Below are positions 26,070 to 43,440 of a stretch of 64,000 bases of DNA, piece after piece. The stretch lies in the NCBI GenBank assembly GCA_026002935.1, contig BPGH01000001.1:1165965-1229964 (forward strand). The letters run 5' to 3'. The number at the start of each line of letters is the position of its first letter. Position 1 is the first letter of the stretch. Under the pieces are notes generated by a model that had not been told where the DNA came from, did no database searches, and saw nothing but the letters and a program-made list of their open reading frames with translations. Both the position numbers and the translations under genes were made by a program. This stretch comes from Acidimicrobiia bacterium (GTDB taxonomy: Bacteria > Actinomycetota > Acidimicrobiia > IMCC26256 > PALSA-610).

Positions 26070-26184
26070 TCGTCGCCGTCACCCTCGGCGGTGGCAGACG
26101 AGCGACGTGTTCTTGTGTCGGACGCCCCCCGCCGCAAGGACAAGAACAGGAATGTGCGACGCGCCCATGCTCGGAGGACGGCCC

Positions 26185-27393
26185 GTGACCCACGATTTCG
26201 AGGTGCTCCTGAGGCGGGCGTTCCCCTGGGGCGTGCACGTCGCGAGGGACTCCGGTCCGGAGTTCGTGTCGGTCCGGTATGGCGTCGTGGAGTCCGACCC
26301 GCCCGCGGCGACGGCGACCGTGTGCCTCGAGTGGGATTCCGGCGAGACCTCCCAGACGGTGACGGCTGCCGACCTCGAGCGCGCCGCGGTCGACGGCGCG
26401 GTCCGGCTGCCCAACGGTGTACGTCTGCGGCAGCCCGAAGTCGGTGACGTCCACCTGCTGGCGTCGCCGCTGCGCGATCTCGTCGGGCCGCAGGTGCCGT
26501 CGGACGACCCATGGGTGGCGCGGATGCGGCTGCACCAGTCGTGGTGGCGTACCTTCCGGCTGCGGGTGCCGTTCGGGTACGGGCCGACCCCGAGCTCCGA
26601 GAAGCGCTACGGCAACATGATCGACGAAGACGCCGCGCGCCACAACCGCAATTTCCTCACACCCGAAGCGGCGCGCGCGTATCGCCAGCGCGTGGCGGAG
26701 GGCCCGGCCGGCATCGACACCTGGCGCACCAGCCGCAACCTCCTGGCGTCGCAGACCATGGCGTTCAATGTTTTCGGTCACCTCGGCGCACATCTCGACC
26801 TCGCGACACAGTTGTTCGCGGCATTGCTCGGCGATGACGAGGTCGCGCTCGTGCGAGCGATCGAGATGGAGCGGCTGTCGGACGCGCTGGGTGATCGGAC
26901 CGCGTTCGACGTGTTCGTCACCTACGAGCGGTCCGGTGGTGGCAATGGCTGTGTCGCGATCGAGACGAAGCTCACCGAGCCGTTCTCGCAACGGGCCTAC
27001 GACTGGAAGCGCTATCTGAGCCACACTGCCTTCGGCACGGACGTCTGGGCGACCAGCGACGCCTCACGGCTCGGGGACCCGCGCTGGTCACAGTTGTGGC
27101 GCAATCACCTGCTGGCGCGGGCAGAGTGCGCGAGGGCGCCGGAGCTCGGCACGGCGACGCTGATGGTGGTGCACCATCCGGGTGATCCACATTGCGCAGC
27201 CAACGTCGACGGCTACCGCGCGCTGTTGCACGACCCGCGAGCTGTGCGCGGAGTCGACCTGCAGGCAATCGTCGACACGCTGCGCGACTGCACCGCCGCG
27301 GACGACGAGCACCAGCAACGCTGGATCCGCGACCTCGAGGACCGCTACCTGGACCTGCGACCTTCCGAGGGATTGATCGGTCTCTCCGACTGA
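26185..27393 (+). CDS. PD-(D/E)XK nuclease-fold protein, PGN_0703-like
   Basis: The 402-residue protein resembles the PGN_0703 family of putative restriction endonucleases: LLASQTMAFNVFGHLGAHLDLATQLFAALL, then RTAFDVFVTYERSGGGNGCVAIETKLTEPFS, where Asp and the Glu-x-Lys pair (about residues 241 and 260-262) form the nuclease core, and a late HPGDPHCAANVDGYRALLHD. GTG at 26185 was chosen because GGAGGACG sits 8 bases upstream. It is the first gene of the defence island and is separated from the helicase operon by 626 bases and a terminator-like hairpin. A decayed copy of residues 7-52 lies at 43306. Confidence 0.75.
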   Translation: MTHDFEVLLRRAFPWGVHVARDSGPEFVSVRYGVVESDPPAATATVCLEWDSGETSQTVTAADLERAAVDGAVRLPNGVRLRQPEVGDVHLLASPLRDLVGPQVPSDDPWVARMRLHQSWWRTFRLRVPFGYGPTPSSEKRYGNMIDEDAARHNRNFLTPEAARAYRQRVAEGPAGIDTWRTSRNLLASQTMAFNVFGHLGAHLDLATQLFAALLGDDEVALVRAIEMERLSDALGDRTAFDVFVTYERSGGGNGCVAIETKLTEPFSQRAYDWKRYLSHTAFGTDVWATSDASRLGDPRWSQLWRNHLLARAECARAPELGTATLMVVHHPGDPHCAANVDGYRALLHDPRAVRGVDLQAIVDTLRDCTAADDEHQQRWIRDLEDRYLDLRPSEGLIGLSD

Positions 27394-28019
27394 GGTGGCG
27401 AGCGAGCGCGACGGCGGCTCCGACGGCGTCCGGTCCGACCCCTGACGCCGGTCCCGGGCGACGCGTCGCTCCGAGCGGGCGACGGCCACCTCCTCGGTGG
27501 CCGTGCACTTCGCGAGCGGGGTGCCGCGGGCGCGCACGACGCAGACCGTGCCGTACACGTTGCGGCTTCGCGAGGCCGGCGTGCGGCATCGTGGCCGGCG
27601 CGTCCAGGTCCGACGAGGGTCTCGCCGGGCCATCGTCCCGGGCTCCGGACGCACTGCACGCGACCACCCGTTGACGAGCCGTTCCGCGCGCGGCCGAGGC
27701 GCGTCGCAGGTCCCGCGGCCAGCCGCCAACGGTACGATTCGTCCGCTGCACGCACGCGTCCCAAGCCGGCCGCAGGATTGCCGGAGTCGGAATCGTGCTG
27801 GGCTGGTTGGAGGCTCCTGGCATCGAGATGAGGAATGGCGTCCGGGCAGCGAGCGTGGCCGATCGCGGTGTGGCGCTCTCGCCGTGCAGCCGCCTGCTCC
27901 GCGCACTTGTGTGTACGATCACGCGATCCGGCATCGGGGCGAGAGCCCCGTGGAACCCAGGATGACCACCAGGTCGGCCTACGATCTGTGACACGAGTGG
28001 CGGCATCGAGGGGAGATGG
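27394..28019. other. Intergenic stretch inside the defence island
   Basis: I find no convincing gene in either strand across these 626 bases. It contains a terminator-like hairpin at 27482-27504 and a GNRA-capped hairpin (CGGGGC-GAGA-GCCCCG) at 27935-27950. The 70 bases before 28020 probably carry the promoter and leader of the helicase gene. Confidence 0.6.
27482..27504 (+). terminator. Terminator-like hairpin after the nuclease gene
   Basis: ACGGCCACC and GGTGGCCGT form a perfect 9-bp stem with a 5-base loop, 89 bases downstream of the nuclease stop. There is no U-tract, as is common in high-GC actinobacteria. Confidence 0.5.
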
Positions 28020-30191
28020 ATGCCGGGCGGCCCACAGATCAGCTTCGCCGACACGTTCTGGCCGAGTGTCGAGCAGTTGGGCACGGGTGACCAGGGCCGT
28101 GTCATCGCCGCGCTGAATCGGTTCAGCAAGGACCCGAGCCAGCCCGGGCTCAACCTCAAGCCCCTGCAAGGCGACAAGAGCGGCCTGTACTCGATCCGCG
28201 CCGCACGCGACATCCGCGTCATCATGCACCGAGCGGGAAACGCATTCGTCTGGCTGTTCGCCGGGATGCGGCAGCACGTCTACGACCTCGTCGAGCGTGG
28301 GCGGTGGATACAGAACCCGCACACCAACTTCGTCGGGCTGATCCTTCCCTCCGAGGTCGAGCATCAGATCGAACGGCAGGGGTCGGTTCTGACCACGCGC
28401 GTGCCGGCCGCCGACGCGGTGGGTGTCTTCGATCACTGGACAGACGCGGATCTGCGGGAGGCGGGTCTCGACGACGCCCAGATCGCGGACCTCCGCTCGT
28501 GTACGAACGAGAACCAACTTCTCGACCTCGACTGGTCGATCGAGGACCTCGACATGGCGATTCAGCTCCTCGAGCAGACGCCCGAGCAGTGGCGCAACCC
28601 GACGCTGGCAGGACCCGAGGATGATGTCGAACACCGTCTCCGCGTCGCCATCGCAGACTTCGGTGCGGCGCACGGTCTGTCACCGCTGTTCACGGCGGAG
28701 GAGGTGGAGCGTCTCGCCTCGGCGCCGATCGAGGAGTGGATGATCTTCCTGCACCCCGATCAGCGGTACGTCGTCGATCGCCGTTTCGACGGCCCGGCGC
28801 GTGTCCGCGGTTCGGCCGGCACGGGGAAGACGGTCGTCGCACTGCACCGCGCCGCGATCCTCGCACGGCGCTTCCTCGAGGAAGAAGGCGGCGGACGCAT
28901 CCTCTTCACCACGTACATCAAGTCGCTACCGCCCGTGTTCGAGCGCCTGTACTCGAGGCTGCCGAACGCGATCGACGGAGCGGTCGAGTTCAGGCACATC
29001 GACTCACTCGCTCGTCGCATCTGCGGCCAAGCGGGTCACCACCTCAACACTGACAAGCGCTCCATCGACGCGGCATGGTCGACGGCGTACCGCCGCATCG
29101 TCACCGACGGTTCGCCTCTCGCGCGTGCCAGCCTCACGCGTGGCTACCTGCGCGACGAGATCACTGCGGTCGTCAAGGGCCGAGGGCTGCGTTCCATCGA
29201 CGAATACCTCTCGCTCGAGCGGACGGGCCGCCGCGTCCGGTTCACGGAACCGATGCGCCGTCAGCTCTGGGATCTGATGTGTGAGTGGGACGCCGAGATG
29301 GCCAAGCGAGGGACGGTCGACTTCAGTGACGTGATCAGAACGGCTCGCGACCTGGCCGTTCAGCGGAACGAACCGGCGTACCGCGCCGCGATCATCGACG
29401 AAGCACAGGATGTAACCCTCGTCGGGCTCCAGCTCGTTCGCGCGCTCGTCACCGGAAGGGACGGCGTTGATCGAACCGACGGGCTCCTGATAGTCGGCGA
29501 CGGCGCTCAACGCATCTACGCCGGCGGGTTCTCGCTGAAGCAAGCGGGCGTCGATGTCGCCGGGCGTGCCACCGTGCTGCGGACGAACTACCGCAACACG
29601 GCGGAGATCATCGGCGCTGCGATGGCGGTTGCGGGCGAGGAGCTCGTGGACGACCTCGGTGACGAGCACCGGCGTGGTGACGCGGCTGCAGAAGCCGTCC
29701 GTGTCTCGGACTTCAAGCCGACTCTCGTCAGCTGCAGCGGACCGGACGACGAGTTGCGCTTCATGCTGCAGATGATCGAGAAATTGGGCGAGGGCGAAAC
29801 GGTGGCCCTCGGCGACATCGGTGTCTTCGCGCCGACGAACCGTGAGGTGGAAGGACTCCTGTCGACTCTCCGGCGTGCCGGGATCCCGGCGCTCGGGCTC
29901 GACGACTACGACGGAGAGCCCGGGCACGAGGTGAAGGTCGGCACCTACTTCAGAGCGAAAGGCCTCGAATTCAAGGTCGTCTTCCTGCCAGGTCTCAGCG
30001 CCGGGAGATTCCCTCGGCCACGTGAGGCGAGTCAGGACGACGCGGAGTATGCCGAGGTCCGATCGCTCGCGATCAGCCAGCTGTTCGTCGCGATGACGCG
30101 AGCGCGAGACGCACTCTTCGTGCTCTGTAGCGGAGCGCCCAGTGAGGCGCTCGAAGGGGCTCTCGACCGGTTCGAGATCGTGGACAGCTGA
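28020..30191 (+). CDS. UvrD/Rep-type SF1 helicase with N-terminal RelE/ParE-fold domain
   Basis: The 723-residue protein has two parts. Residues about 1-95 read as a RelE/ParE-type toxin fold (LKPLQGDKSGLYSIRAARDIRVIMHR, AFVWLFAGMRQHVYDLVERG). From about residue 240 it is an SF1 helicase: GSAGTGKT at 264-271, IIDEAQDV near 459, LRTNYRNTAEI, and QLFVAMTRARDALFVL near 687. The ATG at 28020 follows GAGGGGAGATGG. It is 92 bases upstream of the large DEAH helicase gene in the same direction. Whether the RelE-like part is still an RNase or only a binding module is unknown. Confidence 0.88.
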   Translation: MPGGPQISFADTFWPSVEQLGTGDQGRVIAALNRFSKDPSQPGLNLKPLQGDKSGLYSIRAARDIRVIMHRAGNAFVWLFAGMRQHVYDLVERGRWIQNPHTNFVGLILPSEVEHQIERQGSVLTTRVPAADAVGVFDHWTDADLREAGLDDAQIADLRSCTNENQLLDLDWSIEDLDMAIQLLEQTPEQWRNPTLAGPEDDVEHRLRVAIADFGAAHGLSPLFTAEEVERLASAPIEEWMIFLHPDQRYVVDRRFDGPARVRGSAGTGKTVVALHRAAILARRFLEEEGGGRILFTTYIKSLPPVFERLYSRLPNAIDGAVEFRHIDSLARRICGQAGHHLNTDKRSIDAAWSTAYRRIVTDGSPLARASLTRGYLRDEITAVVKGRGLRSIDEYLSLERTGRRVRFTEPMRRQLWDLMCEWDAEMAKRGTVDFSDVIRTARDLAVQRNEPAYRAAIIDEAQDVTLVGLQLVRALVTGRDGVDRTDGLLIVGDGAQRIYAGGFSLKQAGVDVAGRATVLRTNYRNTAEIIGAAMAVAGEELVDDLGDEHRRGDAAAEAVRVSDFKPTLVSCSGPDDELRFMLQMIEKLGEGETVALGDIGVFAPTNREVEGLLSTLRRAGIPALGLDDYDGEPGHEVKVGTYFRAKGLEFKVVFLPGLSAGRFPRPREASQDDAEYAEVRSLAISQLFVAMTRARDALFVLCSGAPSEALEGALDRFEIVDS

Positions 30192-30283
30192 CCGATGAAG
30201 CCATGTCCCAGCGGGACACGAGAATCACACAGGCAGGGCAGCTGCCGGCGTAGACACGTGGGTGTCAGAGGGGGACTCGACGC

Positions 30284-33200
30284 GTGAAGATGGACGTATT
30301 CGCGCTGCGCGACGCGGTCATCGGTGACTATGAGAAGTTCGTCAAGGGATTCCTGACGATTCGCGACACGCGGATCCGAGAGGCGGTCGAGTCAGGTCTG
30401 AGCGAGGGTCTCTTCTGGCCTGAGCCCTGGCTCTCCCTCAATCCGCGCTTCACCGCAGGCGGGTCCGTCGACGACCTCGTCGCCAGGGGGGTGCTGCACG
30501 AGCAGTGCTCGAAGGTCTTCCGTGTTGGGAAAGACGAGGACGGTGTCGGTCGACCACTCACGTTCTATCGCCATCAGGTCGACGCGATCGAGGCCGCCCG
30601 GGGCGCCAAGAACTACGTTCTCACGACCGGCACCGGATCGGGCAAGAGCCTCGGGTACATCGTCCCGATCGTCGATGCGGTGCTGCGCGCCGGCTCGGGT
30701 GGACGCATCAAGGCGATCGTCGTGTATCCGATGAACGCCCTCGCCAACTCCCAGGAGGAAGAGCTGCGCAAGTTCCTGTCCGCGGGTTACCCGGACGGGC
30801 GTGGACCGGTCACCTTCGCCCGCTACACGGGGCAGGAGGGCGATGACGAGCGCAAACGGATCATCGCGAACCCGCCCGACATCCTCCTCACCAACTACAT
30901 GATGCTCGAGCTGATCCTCACGCGCTCCGACGAGCGTCAGTTGATCGAACAGGCTCAGGGTCTGCAGTTCCTCGTGCTCGACGAACTGCACACCTACCGG
31001 GGTCGCCAGGGCGCCGATGTGGCGCTCCTGTGTCGGCGCGTGCGAGAGGCCTGCAACGCCGAAATCTCGATGCAGTGCATTGGCACCTCGGCGACGCTTG
31101 CCACCGGCGGTACGCTCGCAGAACAGCAAGCCGCGATCGCCGACGTCGCCTCGCGCATCTTCGGCGCTCCGTTTCGCGCCGACCAGATCATCGGCGAGAC
31201 CCTCGAGCGCACCACGGACCCCACTGATTCCTCAGAGGCATTCCGGGCCGAGTTGCGTTCCGCAATCGATTCGCGCGTCGACTTCGGTCCCGACGACTTC
31301 GAGCGCTTCCGGCGGCACCCGCTCGCCCGCTGGGTCGAGTCGACGATCGGCCTCGCCGAGCGCGACGGCCGGCTCGTCCGCGCCGAGCCCCGGAGGCTCT
31401 CAGGCGACGACGGGGTCGCTTCGGAGCTCGCCCGCCTCACCGACCACGCCGTCGAACAGTGCGCGCAGGCTCTTCGCGCAATTCTCCTCGCTGGTTCGAC
31501 GGTCGTCGACCCTACGTCCCGGCGGCCCGTCTTCGCCTTCAAGGTCCACCAGTTCGTCAGCCGGGGATCCAACGTGTACGCAACGGTGGAGCCGCCCTCG
31601 ACGCGCACCATCGCGCTGCACGAGCAGCAGTACGTTCCGGGCGACCGGCGTCGCAGGCTGTTCCCGCTCGCGTTCTGTCGCGACGGTGGGCAGGAGTACT
31701 ACGTCGTCGCTCGCGAGTACGACGACGACGGCGAGCGGATCGTCGGCCGCGACCTCGGTGACACGCTCGAGGAGAAGGGCAAACGTCGTGTCGGGTTCCT
31801 CTATGTCTCCGACGACGCACCGTGGCCCGACGCCGAAGACGAGCAGTTCGAGCGGCTCCCGCCCGACTGGCTCGAAGAGACCCGCACAGGTGCGCCACGT
31901 GTTCGTGCCGACCGCCGCAAGGAGCAACCGGAGTGCGTCTGGGTGAGCCCCGATGGACGCGTCCACGCGTTCGAGCGCGACGGGGCGACGCGCGCATGGT
32001 TCGTGCCCGCGCCGTTCCGGTTCTGTCTCCGGACCGGAGCGACCTACGCGCCGTCGATGCGCAGCGACTTCGTCAAGCTCTCGACCCTCGGATTCGAGGG
32101 TCGCTCGACCGCGACGACGATGCTCACGCTCTCGGTCCTGCGCTTCCTCGACGCCAACGGCTACGACATCCCCAAGAAGCTCCTGAACTTCACCGACAAT
32201 CGGCAGGACGCGTCGCTGCAAGCCGGTCACTTCAACGACTTCGTACAAGTGAGCCTCCTACGCTCGGCGCTGTACCGGGCGGCCGAGGCGGCGGGTCCCG
32301 GCGGCCTCGACTACACGGGCCTCGCGCTCGCGGTTGAGAAGGCGCTCGATCTCGACGTCGCCGACTACGCGCAGAATCCCGACGTGAAGTACGGCGAACG
32401 TGATGAGGTCGACCGTGCGCTGCGCGACGTCCTGACCTATCGCCTCTACTGCGATCTGCGCGCGGGCTGGCGGGTGACGGCTCCGAACCTCGAGCAGACG
32501 GGGTTGCTGCGCATCGAGTACGCGGCGCTCGACCGTCTCTGCATCGAAGAGGACGAGTGGGCGAACTGCCACGAAGTGCTTGCCGACGCGTCGCCGGAGA
32601 CGCGCAAGGAGGTGTGCCGTGCGATCCTCGACCATCTTCGTCGAGAGCTCGCGATCAAGGTCGAGCAGCTCGAGCGCAGCTACCACGACGTGCTCTGGAG
32701 TCGATCCAGTCAGCGCCTGAGGGCTCCCTGGGCGCTCGACGAAGCCGAGCGTTTCAGGCTCGAGCAAGGAAGAGTGGTCTTCCTGCGCAGGGCCGAGGGC
32801 AAGCCGTCCGACAACTGGATCACGTTGACGCCGCGAAGTCTGGTCGGCCAGCACCTGCGGCGTCGAGCCTTCGGTCGGACGCTCTCGACCGTCGAGGTCG
32901 ACACCGTGCTCCATCAGCTCTTCGAGGTCATGACCGTCGGGGGTCTCGTACAGCCCGTGATGGAACGAACCGAGCACGGCGTCGTCGACAAGGGCTACCA
33001 GATCCCCGCCGCCGCACTGCGTTGGGTCGCCGGCGATGGTTCGGCTCCCGCGCGCGACCTCATCCGGGTGCCGCGCGCTGGCGACGAGGGCCGGCAGGCG
33101 AACGCCTTCTTCGTGACCTTCTATCGGGCGATTGCGTCCACACTCGGCGGCTTCGAGGCACGCGAGCACACGGCGCAGGTGCCGGCACCTCAGCGAGAGG

Positions 33201-35488
33201 AACGTGAGCAGCGCTTCCGCGACGGCTTCCTGCCTGTTCTCTTCTGTTCTCCGACCATGGAGCTCGGCATCGACATCGCGAGCCTCAACGTGGTCGGCAT
33301 GCGCAACGTCCCGCCCACGCCCGCGAACTACGCGCAACGGTCGGGCCGAGCAGGCCGGTCGGGCCAACCCGCGCTCGTCATTACCTATTGTTCGACTGGC
33401 TCTGCGCACGACCAGTACTTCTTCCGGCGGCCGACGCTCATGGTCTCGGGCAAAGTGCATCCGCCGCGCATCGATCTTGCCAACGAGGACCTCGTCCGGG
33501 CCCACGTGCATGCGATCTGGCTCAGCGAAGCTCGCATGTCACTCGGGCGCTCGTTGCGTGACGTGCTCGACGTCAGCGGGAATCCGGCATCGCTCGACCT
33601 GCTGCCCGACCGGAGGGACGACCTGGAGCGCCAGGACACCCGCGAGCGCGCGCGGCAGCGAGCGGCCCGCGTTCTCGAGACCGTGCGCGACGACCTCGAC
33701 GGTGCAGACTGGTACACCGAGCGTTGGCTCGACGACACGTTCGGTGCTCTCAAGGCCCGCTTCACTGACGCGTGCCAGCGCTGGAAGGACCTCTTCCGGG
33801 CCGCGGAGAGCCAGCGCAACCTCCAGAACAAGATCGCGGAGGACAACCACCGCACTCCCGAGGAGCGCAAGCGAGCTCGCCAGGCGCGTCACGAGGCGGA
33901 GCTGCAGCTCGAATTGCTGCTCAACGAGGGCACTGACGGGTTCCACAGCGATTTCTACTCGTACCGGTACTTCGCGGCGGAGGGCTTCCTGCCCGGTTAC
34001 AACTTCCCGCGGCTGCCGTTGTCCGCCTTCATCCCCGGCCGCAACAAGGCTGACGAGTACATCTCGCGCCCGCGATTCCTCGCCATCCAAGAGTTCGGGC
34101 CGCAGGCACTGGTGTACCACGAGGGAAGCGTGTACCGGGTCACGCGCGTCATGGTGCCCATCAGTGCCGACGCCGATCCCACGAGCGACGAGGCGATCGT
34201 CACTGTCGTCAAGGTGCAGTGCGGGAACTGCGGCTACCTCCACGACGCTCCCATGGGCGCCGCGCCCGACCGTTGCGTTCAGTGCGACGAACTGCTCTCC
34301 GAGCGGGGCAATCGGTTCCAGTCGCTCTTCCGCATGACGAGTGTCGCCACCCGCCGCCAGGATCGCATCACCTCGAACGCCGAAGAGCGAGAGCGCCGGG
34401 GCTACGAGATCCGCTCCGGGTACCGGTGGGCAGAGGTCGAGGGCCGTCCCTCCGTCCGAACGGCGGAGGTGGTCACCGATGGCGGCCGGATCGCCAAGCT
34501 CGCCTATGGCGCGACCGCAACGCTCACCCGGATCAACGTCGGGTGGATGCGGCGGCTCGACAAGTCGGAGCAGGGGTTCCTGCTGGACGTCGAGCAAGGC
34601 CGTTGGGCGAAAGCCCCCGACCAGTCCGACGACGACGGCGACGGTCTCGGTCCCCGAGTCAAGCGGGTCGTCCCCTTCGTCGAGGACCGGCGCAACACCC
34701 TGATCTTCGACCCGCTCGGGGTCGAGACCACGGAACCTTTCATGGCGAGTCTTGAAGCCTCGCTGAAGGGGGCGATCCAGGCCGAGTTCGACATCGAGGA
34801 CAACGAGCTCGGAGTCGTCAGCCTGCCCGACCCGGCGGCTCGGCGATCGATCCTCATCTACGAGGCGTCCGAAGGTGGGGCCGGTGTGCTCCGCCAGCTC
34901 GTCGACGACCCTGGCGCGATACGACGCGTCGCGCGACGCGCGCTGGAGCGCTGTCACTTCGACCCCGACACGCTCGATGACCTCCGGCGCGCCGAGCAGG
35001 CGCGCGATGACTGCGAGGCAGCCTGCTACGACTGCCTGCTGTCGTACACGAATCAGCCGGATCACCGCATCCTCGACCGGCAGCTCGTCCGTGACTACCT
35101 CGCGACGCTCGCGGGAGCGCGCGTCTACGTCTCGTCCCGTCCCGTCAGCCGCGCGGAGCACCTCGAGCAGCTGCGCCGGCTCGTACAGAGCGACCTCGAG
35201 CGCGAGTGGTTGGAGATGGTCGCCGACGGCGGCTACCGCCTGCCCGACCGTGCTCAGGTGCTGTTCGAGGACCTCGGAGTGCGACCCGACTTCGTCTACG
35301 ACGATGCCCGTTACGCCGTCTACGTCGACGGCCCCCACCACGAGTTCGGGCATCGGATGGACCGCGACCGTGACGGCGAGACGAAGCTCCAGAATGCCGG
35401 CTGGTCGGTGCTTCGCTTCACGTACCGCGAGCAGTGGGGCGAGAAGATCGACGCCCACAGCGGCGTCTTCGGAAGGGGCTACGCGTGA
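30284..35488 (+). CDS. Large DEAH-type helicase with DUF1998-like zinc region and C-terminal VSR/DUF559-like nuclease fold
   Basis: The protein has 1734 residues. Helicase motifs are GTGSGKS (116-122), LDELH (232-236), GTSATLA (267-273) and QRSGRAGR (about 1018-1026), an SF2 enzyme of the YprA/MrfA-DruE-DrmA kind. A zinc ribbon CGNC..CVQC lies near 1312-1336, and a DUF1998-like part has YEASEGGAGVL (about 1525) and CEAACYDCLLSYTN (about 1580). The last 75 residues (GVRPDFVYDDARYAVYVDGPHH, then QNAGWSVLRFTYREQW) look like a VSR/DUF559 PD-(D/E)XK fold. DISARM encodes helicase and DUF1998 as separate DrmA and DrmB; here they are one chain. GTG at 30284 follows AGAGGGGG; the stop overlaps the SNF2 gene as GTGA. 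Confidence 0.85.
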   Translation: MKMDVFALRDAVIGDYEKFVKGFLTIRDTRIREAVESGLSEGLFWPEPWLSLNPRFTAGGSVDDLVARGVLHEQCSKVFRVGKDEDGVGRPLTFYRHQVDAIEAARGAKNYVLTTGTGSGKSLGYIVPIVDAVLRAGSGGRIKAIVVYPMNALANSQEEELRKFLSAGYPDGRGPVTFARYTGQEGDDERKRIIANPPDILLTNYMMLELILTRSDERQLIEQAQGLQFLVLDELHTYRGRQGADVALLCRRVREACNAEISMQCIGTSATLATGGTLAEQQAAIADVASRIFGAPFRADQIIGETLERTTDPTDSSEAFRAELRSAIDSRVDFGPDDFERFRRHPLARWVESTIGLAERDGRLVRAEPRRLSGDDGVASELARLTDHAVEQCAQALRAILLAGSTVVDPTSRRPVFAFKVHQFVSRGSNVYATVEPPSTRTIALHEQQYVPGDRRRRLFPLAFCRDGGQEYYVVAREYDDDGERIVGRDLGDTLEEKGKRRVGFLYVSDDAPWPDAEDEQFERLPPDWLEETRTGAPRVRADRRKEQPECVWVSPDGRVHAFERDGATRAWFVPAPFRFCLRTGATYAPSMRSDFVKLSTLGFEGRSTATTMLTLSVLRFLDANGYDIPKKLLNFTDNRQDASLQAGHFNDFVQVSLLRSALYRAAEAAGPGGLDYTGLALAVEKALDLDVADYAQNPDVKYGERDEVDRALRDVLTYRLYCDLRAGWRVTAPNLEQTGLLRIEYAALDRLCIEEDEWANCHEVLADASPETRKEVCRAILDHLRRELAIKVEQLERSYHDVLWSRSSQRLRAPWALDEAERFRLEQGRVVFLRRAEGKPSDNWITLTPRSLVGQHLRRRAFGRTLSTVEVDTVLHQLFEVMTVGGLVQPVMERTEHGVVDKGYQIPAAALRWVAGDGSAPARDLIRVPRAGDEGRQANAFFVTFYRAIASTLGGFEAREHTAQVPAPQREEREQRFRDGFLPVLFCSPTMELGIDIASLNVVGMRNVPPTPANYAQRSGRAGRSGQPALVITYCSTGSAHDQYFFRRPTLMVSGKVHPPRIDLANEDLVRAHVHAIWLSEARMSLGRSLRDVLDVSGNPASLDLLPDRRDDLERQDTRERARQRAARVLETVRDDLDGADWYTERWLDDTFGALKARFTDACQRWKDLFRAAESQRNLQNKIAEDNHRTPEERKRARQARHEAELQLELLLNEGTDGFHSDFYSYRYFAAEGFLPGYNFPRLPLSAFIPGRNKADEYISRPRFLAIQEFGPQALVYHEGSVYRVTRVMVPISADADPTSDEAIVTVVKVQCGNCGYLHDAPMGAAPDRCVQCDELLSERGNRFQSLFRMTSVATRRQDRITSNAEERERRGYEIRSGYRWAEVEGRPSVRTAEVVTDGGRIAKLAYGATATLTRINVGWMRRLDKSEQGFLLDVEQGRWAKAPDQSDDDGDGLGPRVKRVVPFVEDRRNTLIFDPLGVETTEPFMASLEASLKGAIQAEFDIEDNELGVVSLPDPAARRSILIYEASEGGAGVLRQLVDDPGAIRRVARRALERCHFDPDTLDDLRRAEQARDDCEAACYDCLLSYTNQPDHRILDRQLVRDYLATLAGARVYVSSRPVSRAEHLEQLRRLVQSDLEREWLEMVADGGYRLPDRAQVLFEDLGVRPDFVYDDARYAVYVDGPHHEFGHRMDRDRDGETKLQNAGWSVLRFTYREQWGEKIDAHSGVFGRGYA

Positions 35489-38304
35489 CCTTCGCACCCG
35501 GCGCACTCGTGCGGGCTCGCGAACGAGAGTGGGTCGTCCTCCCCGAGTCGACCGACGACCTCCTCGTCCTGCGGCCACTTGGCGGCACCGATGACGAGGT
35601 CGCAGGCGTGCTCCCCGCGATCGAGCGGGTCGAGCAGGCATCGTTCGAATGGCCCGACCCCGCCGCCGCGGGCGACCATGCGTCGGCTCGCCTTCTCCGC
35701 GACGCCGTCCGAATCGGATTTCGCTCGTCGGCGGGACCGTTCCGCAGCTTTGGCGCCATCGCCGTCGATCCTCGCCCGTACCAGGTCGTCCCGTTGCTCA
35801 TGGCACTGCGCCAGAACCCCGTGCGGCTCCTCATCGCCGACGACGTCGGCATCGGCAAGACGATCGAAGCTGCGCTCATAGCGAAGGAGCTGTTGGTCTC
35901 CGGCCAAGCCCGCCGGCTGTCCGTGCTCTGCCCACCTCATCTCGCCGAGCAGTGGCAGTCAGAGTTGGCGACGAAGTTCCACATCGAGGCCGAGACGGTG
36001 CTCACCTCGACGGCGCGCCGACTCGAGAGGAACCTCGGGCCGAACGAGAGCGTGTTCGAGGCGTATCCCTACACGATCGTGTCGACCGACTTCATCAAGT
36101 CGAACCAGCGCCGGGACGAGTTCATACGCAGCGCCGCCGATCTCCTGATCGTCGACGAGGCGCACACGTGTGCGGCCAGTGCCCCGGGACGAAGCGCGAG
36201 CCACCAGCGGTACGAGCTCGTTCGTGACCTCGCGAGAGATCCCGATCGTCACCTCGTCCTCGTCACGGCGACACCACACTCCGGCAACGAGAGTGCGTTC
36301 CGTTCGCTCATCGGCCTGCTCCATGTCGACTTCGCGAACCTTCCGGACGAGGAGCGCATCGACGAGGCGACCCGCCGGAGGCTCGCCCGCCACTTCGTCC
36401 AGCGGCGACGAAACGACATCCGTGAGTTCGTCGACGCGACGGTGTTCCCCGAAAGGCTGGAGCTCCCCGAAGCCGACGGCCGGTACTCGCTCACGCCCGA
36501 GTACCGAGCGTTTCTCGACGACGTGCTGGCGTGGGCGCGCAGCGCGATCAGCGACGATTCGGGTGGCCAGCACCGCCAGCGCGTGCGGTGGTGGGCTGTT
36601 CTCGGATTGCTCCGTGCCCTCGCATCGAGCCCCACGGCTGCTGCTGTGACGCTCCGCAACCGCGCCGCGCCGGCCCGCACCACGACGCTCCAGGAGGCGG
36701 ACGACGCCGGCCGTCGCAGCGTTCTCGACCTCGACGACAGCGACGACGAGGGACGGTCCGACGCGGCACCGGGCGCCGACGCGGACGAGGATGAAGCGCG
36801 ACGCGAGACGAAGGATCGCGCTCGCTTGCGCAAGCTCGCCGAGCGGGCCGACGCACTCGCGGGCGCGCCGGACGCCAAGCTCACGCACGTCACGAAGTTG
36901 CTGGAGCGGCTGATCGACCAGGGCCACAACCCGATCGTGTTCTGCCGCTTCATCCCCACTGCCGGCTATGTGGCCGACCATCTCCGTCAAGTGCTGCCGA
37001 AACGATGCACGATCGATTCCGTCACGGGACTCCTTCCGCCCGACGAGCGCGAGCGACGGATCGAGGCGATGGCCGATGCCGAGCACCGCGTCCTCGTCGC
37101 GACCGACTGCCTCAGCGAAGGCATCAACCTGCAGTCGTACTTCGACGCCGTCGTCCACTATGACCTCCCCTGGAACCCGACGCGGCTCGAACAGCGCGAA
37201 GGCCGTGTCGATCGCTTCGGACAGACCTCACCGCAGGTCCGCGTCGCGACGGTCTACGGCGTGGACAACGTCATCGACGAGATCGTGCTCGAGGTGCTGC
37301 TCCGCAAACACCGCGCGATTCGCTCCGAGCTCGGTGTGTCGATCCCGGTCCCGGGCTCGAACGACGAGTTCATCGAGTCGGTCTTCGAGCGGCTGTTCCG
37401 AAAGGACAACGAGCAGCTGAGCCTCCTCGACGACGACGTGCGAGAGGTTCAGCAGTCGCTGTTCGACCGATGGGACGACGCGGCAGCACGCGAGAAGGCC
37501 TCCCGGACACGATACGCCCAGTATTCGATCAAGACCGACGAGGTGCGCGCGGAGCTTGCCGCGGTGCGAGCGGCGATCGGCGCTCCTGCCGACATCGCAC
37601 GTTTCGTTCGTGAGGCAGTGCATGCGCTCGGTGGCTCGCTTGAGGGCGACGGCGTGACGCCGAGCGGCCCGCCGGTGACGCTCCGGCTCCGAGGGCTCCC
37701 GCCCGCGGCGCGTGACCTCCTCGAAGACCGCGACACGGTCATCGGACGGTTCGAACCGTCACTGCACGCAGGGGAGGAGCACCTCGCCCGCACGCATCCT
37801 GTCGTCGAGGGCCTCGCCACCCACCTGCTCGACACCGCGCTCGACGCGCAAGACGACTCGCCCGCAGCGCGCTGCGGTGCGATCCGCACCGCAGCGGTCC
37901 GCACGACGACCACGTTGCTCCTCGCACGCTACCGGTTCGATCTGATCGTTCCCGCCGCGAGAGGTCAGCGGCAGCGCCTGCTGGCCGAAGACGTCGAAGC
38001 GCTCGCGTTCGAAGGCCTGTCCGGCTCGATCACCTGGCTCGAGCCCGAGGCGGTCCAGACGCTCCTGGCTGCACAGCCTTCCGGCAACGTCGTTGCCGAG
38101 CAACGTGTCGACTTCCTTCGTCGCGTGATCGGGCATCGCGACGCGATCAGCGGCGCGCTCGCCGAGCGCGCCGCGACGCGAGCCGCAGAGCTCGCAGAAA
38201 CCCACGAGCGGGTTCGGAGGGAGGCCAACCTCGCGGCTGCGGTGCGCGTCGAGCCCCATCTCCCCGTCGACGTCCTCGGCCTCTACGTCTACCTCCCGCA
38301 GTAG
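35485..38304 (+). CDS. SNF2-family ATPase, DrmD-like
   Basis: The 939-residue protein has a double-RecA SNF2 core: ADDVGIGKTIEAALI (about 117-131), LIVDEAHT (about 220-227), VTATPHSGN, then VLVATDCLSEGINLQSY and LEQREGRVDRFGQ (about 566-578). A charged insertion of Asp/Glu/Arg-rich residues (about 410-455) separates the two lobes, and about 300 C-terminal residues of unknown fold follow. GTG at 35485 overlaps the upstream stop as GTGA and has GGAAGGGG ahead of it. In DISARM class 1 such an ATPase (DrmD) is encoded with an adenine methyltransferase, as here, where the methyltransferase gene starts 2 bases downstream. Confidence 0.87.
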   Translation: MTFAPGALVRAREREWVVLPESTDDLLVLRPLGGTDDEVAGVLPAIERVEQASFEWPDPAAAGDHASARLLRDAVRIGFRSSAGPFRSFGAIAVDPRPYQVVPLLMALRQNPVRLLIADDVGIGKTIEAALIAKELLVSGQARRLSVLCPPHLAEQWQSELATKFHIEAETVLTSTARRLERNLGPNESVFEAYPYTIVSTDFIKSNQRRDEFIRSAADLLIVDEAHTCAASAPGRSASHQRYELVRDLARDPDRHLVLVTATPHSGNESAFRSLIGLLHVDFANLPDEERIDEATRRRLARHFVQRRRNDIREFVDATVFPERLELPEADGRYSLTPEYRAFLDDVLAWARSAISDDSGGQHRQRVRWWAVLGLLRALASSPTAAAVTLRNRAAPARTTTLQEADDAGRRSVLDLDDSDDEGRSDAAPGADADEDEARRETKDRARLRKLAERADALAGAPDAKLTHVTKLLERLIDQGHNPIVFCRFIPTAGYVADHLRQVLPKRCTIDSVTGLLPPDERERRIEAMADAEHRVLVATDCLSEGINLQSYFDAVVHYDLPWNPTRLEQREGRVDRFGQTSPQVRVATVYGVDNVIDEIVLEVLLRKHRAIRSELGVSIPVPGSNDEFIESVFERLFRKDNEQLSLLDDDVREVQQSLFDRWDDAAAREKASRTRYAQYSIKTDEVRAELAAVRAAIGAPADIARFVREAVHALGGSLEGDGVTPSGPPVTLRLRGLPPAARDLLEDRDTVIGRFEPSLHAGEEHLARTHPVVEGLATHLLDTALDAQDDSPAARCGAIRTAAVRTTTTLLLARYRFDLIVPAARGQRQRLLAEDVEALAFEGLSGSITWLEPEAVQTLLAAQPSGNVVAEQRVDFLRRVIGHRDAISGALAERAATRAAELAETHERVRREANLAAAVRVEPHLPVDVLGLYVYLPQ

Positions 38305-38306
38305 CC

Positions 38307-41300
38307 ATGTCCCGACGCAGCACTGCTTCCTTCACGACGATCACGACGACAGGCGGATTGCTCCCCGGCGAGCTGCTCGCGCGGCTCGCGCAGGACCCCG
38401 ACTCGGTCTCGGGGACGCGGCCCGAGGACTACCACCTCCCCCCGGGTTCGCGGCTGCGCGATGCGATCAACCGCTCGTGGACCCAGCTGCTCGGCGCGTG
38501 GGAGTCCTTCGAGGCCGAGCGCCAGAAGCCGAACGCGGTCGCGCACGCGGTTCGCATCACGCGCGAACGCTGGCTGATGCCGCTGTTCGACGAGCTCGGC
38601 TTCGGCCGCCTTCAGCGTCCGGCCTCCGGCCTTCGCGTCGGCGATCGCGACTACCCGGTGTCGCACCTGTGGGGGAGCGTGCCGATCCACCTCCTCGGCT
38701 TCGACACCGCCCTGGGCAGGCGCACGCCGGGGAAACCGGGCGCGGCCGGTGCCGCTCCCCACTCGATGCTCCAGGAGTTGCTGAACCGCACCGACGACCA
38801 CCTCTGGGCGATCCTCTCCAACGGCCTCTCGCTCCGACTCCTGCGCGACAACACGAGCCTCACCCGTCCCGCGTACGTCGAGTTCGACCTCGAAGCGATG
38901 TTCGAAGGCCAGGTGTTCGCCGACTTCGTCGTGCTCTGGATGCTGTGTCACCAGTCGCGCTTCGAGGGCGAGCGCCCGTCCGCGTGCCGCATCGAGGCAT
39001 GGACCGCCGAAGCGCACGCCCAGGGCGTACGCGCCCTCGACTCCCTGCGCGAGGGGTTCCGCGCCGCGATCACCGAGCTGGGCACGGGATTCCTCGTGCA
39101 TCCGGCCAACCGGGCCCTGCGCGAGCGGCTGAGCGACGGCTCGCTCACGCCCGCCGATTACTACCGCCAGCTCCTGCGCGTCGTCTACCGGCTCGTCTTC
39201 CTGCTCGTCGCCGAGGACCGCGACCTCCTGCACCCGCCCGGCGCCGACGACCGAGCCGTCGACACCTACGCCCGCTACTTCTCCGTGAGCCGCCTCCGTG
39301 AGCTGGCCCGCAGCCACCGCGGCTCCCGTCATGCGGATCTGTGGGAGTCGTGCAAGCCGGTGTTCCGCGCCCTGCACCGCGACGGCCTTCCCGAGCTCGC
39401 GCTCCCGGTCCTTGGCTCGTTCCTCTGGGCGCCCGACACCTGCCCGGACCTCGAGGCCTCCCGGCTCTCCAACTCCCGGCTCCTCGCGGCTGTTCGGGCC
39501 CTCGCCTACACTCGCCGCGACGACGCCCGCCACCGCGTCGATTTCGCGAACCTCGGCCCCGAGGAGCTCGGCAGCATCTACGAGTCCCTCCTGGAGCTGC
39601 ACCCTCGCCTGGAGGGCGACCGCCGGTTCGAGCTCGTCGACGCAGCGGGCAACGAACGCAAGACCACCGGCAGCTACTACACGCCCACTTCGCTCATCGC
39701 GCAGCTGCTCGACACCGCCTGCGACCCGGTGCTGGACGAAGCCGAGGCCCAGCCCGATCCGGAAGCCGCGCTCCTGAGCCTGAAGGTGCTCGATCCAGCC
39801 TGTGGCTCAGGCCACTTCCTCGTCGCCGCGGCGCAACGCATCGCGGCGAGACTCGCTGCGATCCGCAGCGGCGAGTCCGCCCCGACCCCCGAAGCGGTGC
39901 ACCATGCACTGCGCGACGTCATCGGCCGCTGCATCTACGGCATCGACGTGAACCCGATGGCGGTCGAGCTGTGCAAGGTGAACCTGTGGCTCGAGGCGGT
40001 CGAGCCCGGTCGCCCGCTCTCGTACCTCGACCACCACATCGTCTGCGGCAACGCGCTCCTCGGAACCACGCCGGACCTCGTCGGCGCCGGCGTCCCCGGC
40101 GACGCGTTCGTCGCCCTCACCGGCGACGACAAGACCGTCGCCGCCTCCTGGAAGAAGACCAACAAGGCCGAGCTCACGAAGCGTTCCGCGCGTCTGGCGG
40201 GCCTCGGCCACCGCCTCGCCGAGCTCGTCACCGACCTCGCGGCGGGCGCCGCCGCGATCACCTCGCTCCCCGACGACACCCCCGACGCGGTCGAGGCCAA
40301 GGCGCGAGCCCACGACGCGCTGCTCGCGAGCGAGGCGCATCACCGTGCCCGTCTCGCCGCCGACGCCTGGTGCGCCGCCTTCCTCGCGCCCAAGCGCGCC
40401 GGCGACCCGCCGATCACCACGTCGACCGTGGACGCGCTCGCCGAGGGTGAGGTGCTGGACGAGGCCGTGCTCGACGCAGTGATCGCGACGCGCGAGCAGT
40501 TCTCGCTCCTGCACCCGCACGTCACGTTCCCCGAGGTGTTCGCCGGCGGCGGCTTCGACCTGGTGATCGGGAACCCGCCCTGGGAGAAGGTGAAGCTCTC
40601 CGAGAAGGAGTTCTTCGCGCCTCGCATCCCCGAGGTCGCGGCCGCGGCGGGCGCGAAGCGCAAGGCGCTGATCAAGAAGCTCGAGGCCGAGGATCCGGCG
40701 CTGTGGGAGGAGTTCCAGGCCGCGCTCCGCCGCGCCGGCGGCGAGAGTCACTACCTGCGCAAGAGCGGCCGCTTCCCGCTCTGCGGCGTCGGCGATGTCA
40801 ACACCTATGCCGTGTTCGCCGAGCTGATGCGTGATGCCGTCGGCCCGGCCGGACGCGTCGGGGTCATCGTCCCCACCGGCATCGCGACCGACGACACGAC
40901 CAAGCGCTTCTTCGCCGACTGCGTCGACCGCCGGTCACTGGCGAGCCTCTTCGACTTCGAGAACGGTGCCCCGCTGTTTCCGGGCGTACATCGAAGCTTC
41001 AAGTTCTGCCTGCTCACCCTCTCGGGTCGCGACCGCCCGATCCCGGCGGCCGAGTTCGCGTTCTTCGCCCGCCGGACCACCGACCTCGGCGACCCCGAGC
41101 GCCGCTTCGAGCTCACCCCCGAGGATCTCGCCCTGATGAACCCCAACACCCGCACCGCGCCGGTGTTCCGGACCAGGCGCGACGCCGAGCTCACCAAGAA
41201 GATCTACCGCAACGTGCCGGTGCTGGTCCGGGAAGGCGACCCCGACGGCAACCCCTGGGGCGTCGAGTTCTCGACGATGTTCCACATGACGAACGACTCG

Positions 41301-42266
41301 CACCGCTTCCGCACCGCCGCCGAGCTCGCCGCCGAGGGCGCCGAGCTGGTCGGCAACGTGTGGGTCAAGGGCGCGCAGCGGTGGCTGCCGCTGTACGAGG
41401 CGAAGATGGTCCACCACTTCAACCACCGCTTCGGCGACTACGCGATGCAGCCGCCGGGATCCAAGGCCACCTCGCTCCCCGACGTCCCGGCCGACCGCCT
41501 CGCCGACCCCTGCTACGTGGTGCAGCCACGCTACTGGGTCGCCGAACACGAGGTCCGCACCGCGCTCGGCGGACGCGAACCGACTTGGCTCCTCGGGTTC
41601 CGGGACATCACGAACGTGACGAACGAGCGCACAATGATCGCCAGCGCTGTCCCGCCGGTTCCCTGTGGCCACAAGCTGCCGGTCATTCATGCGCCGGGCC
41701 GGACCAGAGCTGCGTTGCTCGCTGTTCTCGATTCGTTCTCCCAAGATTTCGTCGCTCGGCAGAAGGTTGGCGGAACGAACATGACCTTCTTCGTGCTGAA
41801 GCAACTCCCGGTGCCTGCGCCCGACGCACTCGACGCCGAGACGCCATGGGACCGCGACGGCACGGTCGCCGCCTGGATGGCGCCCCGCACATTGGAGCTC
41901 ACTTACACGGCCTGGGACTTGCAGGCGATCGCAGCGGACCTCGGTCATGACGGCCCGCCGTTCCGCTGGGATCCCGAACGGCGTGAGCTCATCCGGGCCG
42001 AGCTCGATGCGGCGTTCTTCCACCTCTACGGGCTCGATCGCGACGACGTCGACTACGTGATGGACACGTTCCCGATCGTGCGGCGCACGGACGAGCAGAA
42101 GTACGGCGAGTACCGGACGAAGCGCTTGATCCTCGAGCGCTACGACGCGATCGCCGAGGCGATGGCGAGCGGGAATCCGTACGAGACACCGCTCGACCCA
42201 CCGCCCGGCGATCCCTCGTGCTGCCACCCCGAGTCGACGCGGCCCGACTGGGCTCGGTCCGGCTGA
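38307..42266 (+). CDS. N6-adenine DNA methyltransferase, PglX/DrmMI-like
   Basis: The 1319-residue protein has an N-terminal helical part (1-450), then the methyltransferase core with YYTPTSLIAQLLD, the SAM motif LDPACGSGHFLVAA (about 494-507), IYGIDVNPMAVELCKVNLWL and the catalytic motif GNPPW (about 755-759). An insertion rich in Ala/Lys separates these motifs. The C-terminal 450 residues (EFSTMFHMTNDSHRF, MVHHFNHRFGDYAMQ) resemble the target-recognition part of Eco57I/PglX enzymes. It would methylate adenine in host DNA to mark self. The ATG comes 2 bases after the SNF2 stop. Confidence 0.9.
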   Translation: MSRRSTASFTTITTTGGLLPGELLARLAQDPDSVSGTRPEDYHLPPGSRLRDAINRSWTQLLGAWESFEAERQKPNAVAHAVRITRERWLMPLFDELGFGRLQRPASGLRVGDRDYPVSHLWGSVPIHLLGFDTALGRRTPGKPGAAGAAPHSMLQELLNRTDDHLWAILSNGLSLRLLRDNTSLTRPAYVEFDLEAMFEGQVFADFVVLWMLCHQSRFEGERPSACRIEAWTAEAHAQGVRALDSLREGFRAAITELGTGFLVHPANRALRERLSDGSLTPADYYRQLLRVVYRLVFLLVAEDRDLLHPPGADDRAVDTYARYFSVSRLRELARSHRGSRHADLWESCKPVFRALHRDGLPELALPVLGSFLWAPDTCPDLEASRLSNSRLLAAVRALAYTRRDDARHRVDFANLGPEELGSIYESLLELHPRLEGDRRFELVDAAGNERKTTGSYYTPTSLIAQLLDTACDPVLDEAEAQPDPEAALLSLKVLDPACGSGHFLVAAAQRIAARLAAIRSGESAPTPEAVHHALRDVIGRCIYGIDVNPMAVELCKVNLWLEAVEPGRPLSYLDHHIVCGNALLGTTPDLVGAGVPGDAFVALTGDDKTVAASWKKTNKAELTKRSARLAGLGHRLAELVTDLAAGAAAITSLPDDTPDAVEAKARAHDALLASEAHHRARLAADAWCAAFLAPKRAGDPPITTSTVDALAEGEVLDEAVLDAVIATREQFSLLHPHVTFPEVFAGGGFDLVIGNPPWEKVKLSEKEFFAPRIPEVAAAAGAKRKALIKKLEAEDPALWEEFQAALRRAGGESHYLRKSGRFPLCGVGDVNTYAVFAELMRDAVGPAGRVGVIVPTGIATDDTTKRFFADCVDRRSLASLFDFENGAPLFPGVHRSFKFCLLTLSGRDRPIPAAEFAFFARRTTDLGDPERRFELTPEDLALMNPNTRTAPVFRTRRDAELTKKIYRNVPVLVREGDPDGNPWGVEFSTMFHMTNDSHRFRTAAELAAEGAELVGNVWVKGAQRWLPLYEAKMVHHFNHRFGDYAMQPPGSKATSLPDVPADRLADPCYVVQPRYWVAEHEVRTALGGREPTWLLGFRDITNVTNERTMIASAVPPVPCGHKLPVIHAPGRTRAALLAVLDSFSQDFVARQKVGGTNMTFFVLKQLPVPAPDALDAETPWDRDGTVAAWMAPRTLELTYTAWDLQAIAADLGHDGPPFRWDPERRELIRAELDAAFFHLYGLDRDDVDYVMDTFPIVRRTDEQKYGEYRTKRLILERYDAIAEAMASGNPYETPLDPPPGDPSCCHPESTRPDWARSG

Positions 42267-42280
42267 GGAGGGGCGCGAGC

Positions 42281-43033
42281 GTGGCGGGCAAGCTGAAGCC
42301 GACACCGCTCGAGGCGTTCGACCAGAGCATGGAGGACGCCGAACTGCTCGTCGACCTCGCCGAGGCGTTTGACAACACCCGAGTACGGCGCATGCGCCGC
42401 GAGCTGCGGGAGCGAGTCGGGAGCCTGCTGAAGCTCCCGCGCCGGGAGTGGGATCAACTCGACTGCGTCGAGAGCGCCGACGTCTTCGTCGTGCTGAAGC
42501 CCGGTGGTCGGATCACTCGCGCGGATTTCGCGAATCGTGCGCCCCTCCTCCGCCAGGCGATCGTCGCTGGTTGCGCAGCCTTCGAGACCTATCTGGGGGA
42601 CCGCGCGATCGCCGAGGCACGAAAGCGGATCGCCGGCAGGTCCGAGCTTCCCGCTCGGATGCAGGCCATCCCGATGACGATCGGCGCGTGGGACGCGGTC
42701 CAGTCGTACAGGTATCCACGGCGAGGAATCACGGAACGTGTCATCGGCCCCTGGCTCCGGGAGCACGTCAGCACGTCCCCCAGCAAGGTGGGGGAGACGT
42801 TGTCGCTTCTCGGCGTCGATGGACCCCTCCACAAGATCGACGGTGCACGCGCGCGCGACAAGGGAAGGACCGAGGCGGATCTGCAGCGCATCACCGAACG
42901 GCGCAACAAGATCGCGCACGAAGGCGACCGTCGTGGCTACACGCGGCGATCGATCGACGTCGAGGCGGTGCGCGAGGAGTTGAGGATCCTGCGCGAGATC
43001 GTCGCCGCGATCGAGAAGGTGTTGGCTCGATGA
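42281..43033 (+). CDS. HEPN-domain protein (RiboL-PSP-HEPN-like)
   Basis: The 250-residue protein is mostly helical. RQAIVAGCAAFETYLGDRAI in the middle is a typical RiboL-PSP-HEPN helix, and ERRNKIAHEGDR carries the R-x4-H signature (RNKIAH) of catalytically active HEPN ribonucleases. GTG at 42281 has GAGGAGGGG upstream and lies 14 bases after the methyltransferase stop; the stop overlaps the next ATG by 4 bases. In a defence operon a HEPN protein could cleave RNA to arrest an infected cell, or it could be a structural subunit. Activity is inferred from the motif. Confidence 0.78.
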   Translation: MAGKLKPTPLEAFDQSMEDAELLVDLAEAFDNTRVRRMRRELRERVGSLLKLPRREWDQLDCVESADVFVVLKPGGRITRADFANRAPLLRQAIVAGCAAFETYLGDRAIAEARKRIAGRSELPARMQAIPMTIGAWDAVQSYRYPRRGITERVIGPWLREHVSTSPSKVGETLSLLGVDGPLHKIDGARARDKGRTEADLQRITERRNKIAHEGDRRGYTRRSIDVEAVREELRILREIVAAIEKVLAR

Positions 43034-43305
43034 GCGAACTGTCGGACTACGGCATCGACCTGCAGACGCTGCGGCACATGTACGACGAGTGGTGCGCGGG
43101 CGCGAAGAAGAGCGAGTTGGAGCGGCGATATCTCCGCAAACCGGAGAGCCACGGCAAGCTGTTCTCGTCGCTGGTGCGTCGGCACCTCGGCATCGAGACC
43201 GAGCGTCACCGGAGCGAGACCGGCGAGATCACGCGGTTGCGTGCGGAGAACGAGCGACTGCGCACGCTGTTGCGTGCACATGGCATCGACCCGGAGGAAG
43301 GCTAG
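43030..43305 (+). CDS. Small HTH plus coiled-coil protein ending the defence operon
   Basis: The protein has 91 residues. The first 60 (LQTLRHMYDEWCAGAKKSELERRYLRK, then a short basic stretch) look like a helix-turn-helix, and the last 30 (EITRLRAENERLRTLLRAHGI) form a leucine-zipper-like coiled coil. I do not recognise the family. ATG at 43030 overlaps the HEPN stop as ATGA, so the two are coupled, which would suit an antidote, regulator or DNA-targeting partner of the HEPN protein. Confidence 0.75.
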   Translation: MSELSDYGIDLQTLRHMYDEWCAGAKKSELERRYLRKPESHGKLFSSLVRRHLGIETERHRSETGEITRLRAENERLRTLLRAHGIDPEEG

Positions 43306-43440
43306 GCGCTCCTGCGATGCTCCTTTCCCCCGGACGTGCGCGTCGCCGATTCCGTTCGGAGTTCGTGTCGACCGGATGCATGGTCAAGAGACAACCGCCC
43401 GACCGCGGCGACGGCGACCGTGTTCTTCGAGCGCAACTCC
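43306..43440 (+). pseudogene. Decayed copy of the N-terminal part of the PGN_0703-like nuclease gene
   Basis: These 135 bases line up with 26203-26340 of the nuclease gene. Translation gives ALLRCSFPPDVRVADS against VLLRRAFPWGVHVARDS, then after a frameshift EFVS against EFVS, then TAATATVFFERNS against PAATATVCLEWDS. At DNA level CGGAGTTCGTGTCG and CGCGGCGACGGCGACCGTGT are identical. The copy has a net 4-base loss followed by a 1-base gain, and a stop soon after. It begins directly after the stop of the small HTH gene. Confidence 0.75.

Follow-up and report, generated by a model that had tools for sequence, protein, structure and literature searches.

A predicted ARMADA type I locus with additional nuclease, RelE-UvrD and HEPN genes in an Acidimicrobiia bacterium

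Gene layout and edges of the island

The window, i.e. the whole 64,000-nucleotide stretch of an Acidimicrobiia contig that was analysed, contains seven genes whose frames are all open on the + strand between positions 26152 and 43305 (Table 1). Open reading frames, Pfam searches and codon-usage calls agreed with the first-pass annotation on these genes, their order and their common strand. Pfam matches above cut-off were obtained for the nuclease, UvrD, DEAD, Helicase_C, MZB, SNF2, Eco57I/N6 methyltransferase and HEPN domains. The HEPN protein, whose presence had been proposed earlier, also carries an intact Rx4-6H motif (RRNKIAH at position 228 of a 271-aa frame). The HTH label of the orphan found no support in Pfam.

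Table 1. Positions of genes and other features of the island
Feature	Position	Strand	Remarks
PD-(D/E)XK nuclease (PDDEXK_13 / REase-ARP)	26152..27393	+	413 aa; codon-usage call, Pfam PF20796 4.1e-69
RelE-UvrD fusion helicase, ArmD-like, predicted to lie outside the type II ArmD lineage	28020..30191	+	723 aa
ArmC-like YprA/DruE-type helicase: DEAD, Helicase_C, MZB/DUF1998, putative C-terminal Vsr/DUF559-like nuclease	30284..35488	+	1734 aa
Putative Vsr/DUF559-like PD-(D/E)XK domain, C-terminal in the ArmC-like protein	35141..35485	+	conserved D1669, D1682, H1686
ArmA-like SNF2/RapA helicase	35485..38304	+	codon-usage call; longest frame from 35434
ArmB-like PglX/DrmMI-type adenine DNA methyltransferase	38307..42266	+	1319 aa from first start; codon-usage start 38358
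HEPN protein (RiboL-PSP-HEPN)	42281..43033	+	Pfam PF18735 3.9e-7, above cut-off
91-aa orphan (earlier label HTH/coiled coil)	43030..43305	+	4-bp overlap with HEPN gene
Decayed copy of nuclease-gene 5' part (26201-26331)	43304..43431	+	73% identity, 135 alignment columns

The genes from 30284 to 43305 had been described as overlapping or nearly touching, which their spacing bears out: the YprA and SNF2 genes overlap by 4 bp, the methyltransferase gene (counted from 38307) follows after 2 bp and the HEPN gene after a further 14 bp, and the HEPN and orphan genes again overlap by 4 bp. The UvrD gene ends 92 bp before the YprA gene. Between the nuclease gene and the UvrD gene downstream of it lie 626 bp, and given this distance the nuclease gene may be a unit separate from the operon; neither a sigma-70-like promoter nor a terminator was found in 27394-28100, a weak test in such DNA. 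The GC content was 66-71% in the island, compared with 71-79% in the remaining 2-kb sections of the window.

In a search of the whole genome, the decayed copy of the nuclease-gene start that follows directly on the orphan gene (1.3e-12) ranked second for this DNA (6.0e-10), while the next matches were short (at most 58 query bases), reached 3.7e-6 and lay mostly on another part of the query. The operon thus has the start of the nuclease gene on both sides, intact on the left and broken on the right, as would be expected if it had arrived by recombination. We infer that the island entered at or next to a nuclease gene in this way, and the decayed copy at its right edge is a possible scar of that entry.

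Assignment of the three central genes

When compared with PADLOC-DB 2.0.0, the three central proteins gave a mixed reading of DruE, DpdE and DrmMI. The large helicase matched DruE3 with 332 bits and DrmA with 43 bits, so that its earlier description as DruE-like held. The SNF2 protein scored 860 bits with the DpdE model PDLC02853 and 300 bits with DrmD, its score with the DrmD equivalog being 343.7 bits against a cut-off of 610. The methyltransferase, which carries the motifs DPACGSG and NPPW, scored 229 bits with DrmMI and matched PglX models below their cut-offs.

A non-canonical DISARM class 1 system with fused DrmA and DrmB would agree with the resemblance of the SNF2 protein to DrmD and of the methyltransferase to DrmMI. 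However, the helicase is DruE-like, the DrmD equivalog score falls short of its cut-off, neither a separate DrmB nor the PLD protein DrmC (already reported missing by the first-pass annotation) was among the matches listed for the seven proteins, and the core matches ARMADA type I. DISARM was therefore rejected as the family, with DrmA and DrmB likewise not found as separate genes, and we regard this reading as highly improbable. What stands of the earlier description as DISARM-like and non-canonical is a defence-type gene set related to DISARM. Druantia was also rejected as the family, since no Druantia partner, DruH or other, was among the 25 best matches of each of the seven proteins.

The description of ARMADA as a defence system goes back to a bioRxiv preprint of September 2025 (Bell et al., PMC12458937). 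According to passages of that preprint, type I is the more widely distributed branch and has the order YprA-like helicase with a C-terminal Vsr-type nuclease, BrxHII/RapA-like helicase and PglX-like methyltransferase; type II has the order SNF2, methyltransferase and YprA, followed almost always by a RelE-UvrD helicase as its fourth gene. The experiments in these passages concern type II in two E. coli strains. Loss of any of the four genes of a cloned type II system abolished protection, which also needed the Asn of the ArmB NPPW motif and was non-abortive, infected cells staying intact. The passages of PMC12904381 list ARMADA with those restricting systems whose mechanism is unknown. A literature search on ARMADA gave PMC13192584 as one further paper.

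By content, order and clade, the three central genes of the island (YprA, SNF2 and methyltransferase) are assigned to ARMADA type I. The core is thus not part of an unnamed hybrid system, as had been supposed, but had already been described with the same gene order in the preprint passages. Bit scores of the window YprA protein were 1225-2619 with predicted type I copies 1650 aa or longer, compared with 150-200 for eight type II copies; the whole type II order was seen in six of these eight, and only YprA and RelE-UvrD were labelled in L163 and L164. A tree of YprA was built from 91 proteins with a single DrmA as the root and without the preprint's reference WP_108720193.1. In it, the window protein grouped with those of L055 and L125 (support 1.0) inside a clade of 81 type I proteins; support for the type I clade as a whole is moderate, at 0.754. 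The eight type II proteins formed one clade (support 1.0). ARMADA type II was rejected for the window on gene order, YprA bit scores and the tree positions of YprA and ArmD.

A nuclease domain fused to the end of the large helicase, as proposed from the first inspection, was found as a Vsr/DUF559-like region. Across 81 rows of ARMADA ArmC proteins, a count that excludes L053, D1669 was present in 80 with a gap in the remaining one, D1682 in 78 and H1686 in 72. A structure model of the last 355 residues (pLDDT 90.3) gave MrfA, a DUF1998 helicase, as its best PDB match in Foldseek (6znp, 7.6e-6), and no Vsr chain was among the top 50. A profile of the nuclease end showed weak PDB matches at 0.036-0.18, with Vsr chains at 0.16-0.18, and DUF559 was matched in 22 of 22 members. 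The tentative assignment as a Vsr/DUF559-like nuclease draws on these weak PDB matches and on DUF559.

The model PDLC02853 was also matched nearly end to end by the SNF2 protein of a Deinococcus ARMADA locus (769 bits), and with 136 bits by that of E. coli type II. This model probably describes ArmA of ARMADA type I. The gain for annotation is that PADLOC-DB 2.0.0 can be seen to read an ARMADA core as a mixture of DruE, DpdE and DrmMI.

Recurrence of the core and of the additional genes

Other loci were found by a scan of named genomes with the window SNF2 protein, and the best 80 of 208 confirmed loci were examined; as these were selected through SNF2, the frequency of its absence is not deducible from them. 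Judging by record titles, they come from what we take to be Actinomycetota, Bacillota, Chloroflexota, Planctomycetota, Desulfobacterota and other phyla. Genes in these neighbourhoods were our own calls by codon usage. YprA upstream and methyltransferase downstream of SNF2, on the same strand, were present in 72 of the 80 loci, and for the other eight the missing side is cut off by the end of the contig, at most 900 bases from the SNF2 gene. The trio also occurred in this order in 18 of 20 further stretches of the phylum found with the YprA protein, the two without it being L052 and L053. The 100 stretches amount to 97 distinct core loci, since L034 and L065 are one contig, and both L052 and L053 lack the SNF2 core. 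The SNF2 residues K142, D241 and E242 of the Walker and DEAH motifs were kept in 100 of 100 type I rows and NPPW of the methyltransferase in 60 of 60, the window being included in each count. The SNF2 proteins of L054, L055, L056 and L125 are 64-67% identical to that of the window.

The search for the same gene order elsewhere was thus successful for the three-gene core, which proved very stable as a unit in the locus and its 80 relatives, but not for the nuclease, HEPN and orphan genes, which had no match in the 100 stretches. This does not agree with the earlier idea of seven genes conserved as one system; on present comparisons the three-gene core is the conserved unit and the other four genes are additions. 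A new defence system in which all seven parts act together would fit the codirectional, nearly touching genes between 30284 and 43305 and the presence of a UvrD gene directly before YprA in L108 as well, whose UvrD protein is the sister of the window protein. Yet apart from the absence of nuclease, HEPN and orphan from the related stretches, a search of the 395 other genomes in the phylum sample gave no HEPN match at 1e-6, and near relatives of the core lack the additions: in L055 all four are absent from about 3.5 kb on the upstream and 6 kb on the downstream side; in L125, whose contig ends in the methyltransferase gene, the 2 kb or so upstream contain no RelE-UvrD or nuclease gene; and in L054 and L056, whose contigs start in YprA, no HEPN or orphan gene lies downstream. 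A seven-gene system is therefore unlikely, and a conserved core with additions is preferred.

The host genome holds one full-length copy of the large helicase, three further matches being short. Among 30 relatives, many of them incomplete, none had an ARMADA-grade SNF2 protein, and three showed partial matches of 33-35%. Because of this, and because the additional genes were unmatched in the 100 stretches, the island looks patchy in its occurrence and the additions look local. The single homologue of HEPN on a plasmid lies next to integrase genes, and no ARMADA gene is annotated in its vicinity; viral contigs gave two short partial matches. Homologues of the nuclease were found in 7 plasmid records, and the two stretches examined have no annotated ARMADA gene; viral contigs held no close relatives of the nuclease or of RelE-UvrD. 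Neither the plasmid nor the phage collections contained a homologue of the orphan.

A census of accessory genes, excluding L034, L052 and L053, comprised 121 same-strand ORFs of at least 80 aa in and around the cores (up to three genes downstream and two upstream, gaps of at most 250 bp). Of these, 111 were scanned together with three window proteins; the L108 fragment and nine ORFs between 80 and 134 aa long did not enter the scan. Among the 46 and 70 families, the 25 commonest were a scattered assortment that included GmrSD, Mrr_N, McrBC, Fic, HamA, SIR2 and others. UvrD/AAA_19 was the commonest accessory family, with 8-9 of 49 in the second census set, for which the 25 commonest families were listed.

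Several further loci were observed. L055 and L125 are two ARMADA type I copies on two contigs of one MAG (Actinomycetes bacterium YF2.bin99); the SNF2 proteins of both are 67% identical to that of the window, and one copy has a 596-aa gene between YprA and SNF2. Plasmid MP1 of the much-studied Deinococcus radiodurans R1 carries an ARMADA type I locus (L179:14001-25497). Genes for McrB and McrC follow farther downstream, and the methyltransferase of the locus, which looks interrupted, is split into two genes in the annotation. No literature on this locus was found, the passages of PMC10855626 being without it. Plasmid pNOCA01 of Nocardioides sp. JS614 (L178), which was typed as conjugative, holds a drmA-drmB-cytosine methyltransferase set, an ARMADA type I core and an AAA-McrC pair in one run.

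The N-terminus of the RelE-UvrD protein matched no Pfam model at cut-off (best ParE_like, 0.035). A profile of 15 sequences matched RelK (2.9e-4), a toxin-like protein (7.2e-4) and YoeB (0.0013) in the PDB, and HigB-like toxin was matched by 3 of the 15 members at E up to 1 (best 2.2e-6), so that the earlier RelE label is backed by the profile search, Pfam alone remaining below cut-off. The structure model of the protein was moderate (pLDDT 71.5, pTM 0.44), and the 50 Foldseek matches listed for it were led by UvrD-type helicases and included no RelE chain. In the alignment, from which L160 was left out, the window domain has an Arg (R84) where the ten other true rows have His, and it is therefore uncertain whether it would be an active RNase. 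This residue and the decayed nuclease-gene fragment at the right edge are points in favour of the island being an inactive or decaying relic; against this, the seven frames are all open and the core motifs checked are intact, which makes a relic very improbable.

RelE-UvrD genes were counted in 8 of the 100 stretches (97 distinct core loci), with the RelE end in view in seven. They lay between YprA and SNF2 in L038, L067, L089, L094, L117 and L119 and after the methyltransferase in L126. L108 was counted although its contig holds only the last 188 residues, 53% identical to the window over this length, the contig edge hiding whether there is a RelE end. Not counted were L111 (UvrD, 380 aa, RelE end absent) and L043 and L045, in which the UvrD protein encoded upstream of YprA is another, more distant one and showed no match to RelE; by eye, the N-terminus of the L045 protein (L045:2863-4842) resembles a NERD nuclease.

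A midpoint-rooted tree of the UvrD helicase domains (32 sequences, 470 columns, ultrafast bootstrap, II_L166 left out) placed the window as sister to L108 (support 99). The type II copies, together with one copy near an N6 methyltransferase gene, formed a clade of their own (98). A third clade (100) consisted of five type I copies, and a fourth (95) of copies that neighbour Type III R-M-like gene pairs or a BREX gene. Because of these separate clades, the window protein is judged not to be a type II ArmD that was transferred, and RelE-UvrD seems to be a module that was recruited repeatedly.

RelE-UvrD genes were also seen after Res/Mod-like pairs of the Type III R-M kind (L173:1432-9373, L201:3031-11091, L204:1357-10602), an association of which no mention was found in the passages of the cited papers. 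A Cylindrospermopsis plasmid (L202:2429-19102) carries a DEAD/DEAH helicase gene (6549 bp), RelE-UvrD, a second helicase and an N6 methylase; in the UvrD tree its RelE-UvrD falls together with ArmD of E. coli type II (support 99), although passages of the preprint (PMC12458937) call the type II order strict.

It is tentatively proposed, at somewhat less than even odds, that RelE-UvrD is a free-standing second-tier effector for unrelated modification-based systems (ARMADA I and II, Type III R-M-like systems and a BREX neighbourhood), which type I would have recruited several times independently at up to three positions, and which the window would stack with HEPN to give one DNA-cutting and two RNA-cutting tiers. 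If this is true, ArmD is an accessory of ARMADA type II rather than one of the parts that define it. RelE-UvrD is required in the tested type II system, yet is present in few type I loci, and restriction by the core alone can now be tested against the contribution of RelE-UvrD.

Proposed mode of action and comparison with known systems

The best explanation of the island is an anti-phage system of ARMADA type I to which modules have been added; we assign this reading a probability of about 0.78. The proposed mechanism, carried over from the type II experiments in the passages of PMC12458937 and not from type I, is likely to be methylation-guided restriction by helicases and a nuclease, with RelE and HEPN as back-up RNases. 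The methyltransferase (ArmB) would mark host DNA as self, the SNF2 (ArmA) and YprA (ArmC) helicases would load on foreign DNA that is unmarked or replicating, and the C-terminal Vsr-like nuclease of ArmC would cut it. RelE-UvrD might ride the same DNA intermediates and add an RNase that acts if restriction fails. HEPN would be a second RNase back-up of the PrrC kind, a role suggested by the model for HEPN genes as a second line beside R-M systems in the passages of PMC3710099; the passages of PMC7251935 concerned only Gabija, Hachiman and toxin-antitoxin entries. The overlapping 91-aa partner perhaps holds HEPN in check, and the upstream PD-(D/E)XK gene could be an independent restriction-type nuclease or cargo of the island. 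The earlier view of HEPN as an abortive arm is unproven, type II protecting without killing the cell according to the passages of PMC12458937.

In the PrrC/PrrI-type R-M systems treated in the passages of PMC3710099, as in the window, a HEPN gene lies beside modification-based restriction; the window HEPN is in contrast a separate protein without an ABC ATPase. DISARM class 1 has in common with the window DrmD-like and DrmMI-like proteins and a DUF1998 helicase, but has separate DrmA and DrmB genes where the window has one 1734-aa chain. Druantia has the helicase DruE, to which the window helicase is closest in PADLOC, whereas the partners of the latter are SNF2 and an adenine methyltransferase.

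ARMADA type II, as on the E. coli plasmid pQnrS1_005237 (L177), has four protein kinds in common with the window, including the RelE-UvrD helicase. It differs in its order, i.e. SNF2, methyltransferase, YprA (2113 aa) and RelE-UvrD, and the window RelE-UvrD falls outside the clade of the type II copies. The main text of the preprint (PMC12458937), as far as its passages go, names RelE-UvrD for type II only, whereas the window has it beside a type I core, and the word HEPN is absent from that main text. With ARMADA type I the window shares the same core proteins in the same order, YprA, SNF2 and methyltransferase, to which it adds RelE-UvrD and PD-(D/E)XK genes upstream and the pair of HEPN and 91-aa genes downstream.
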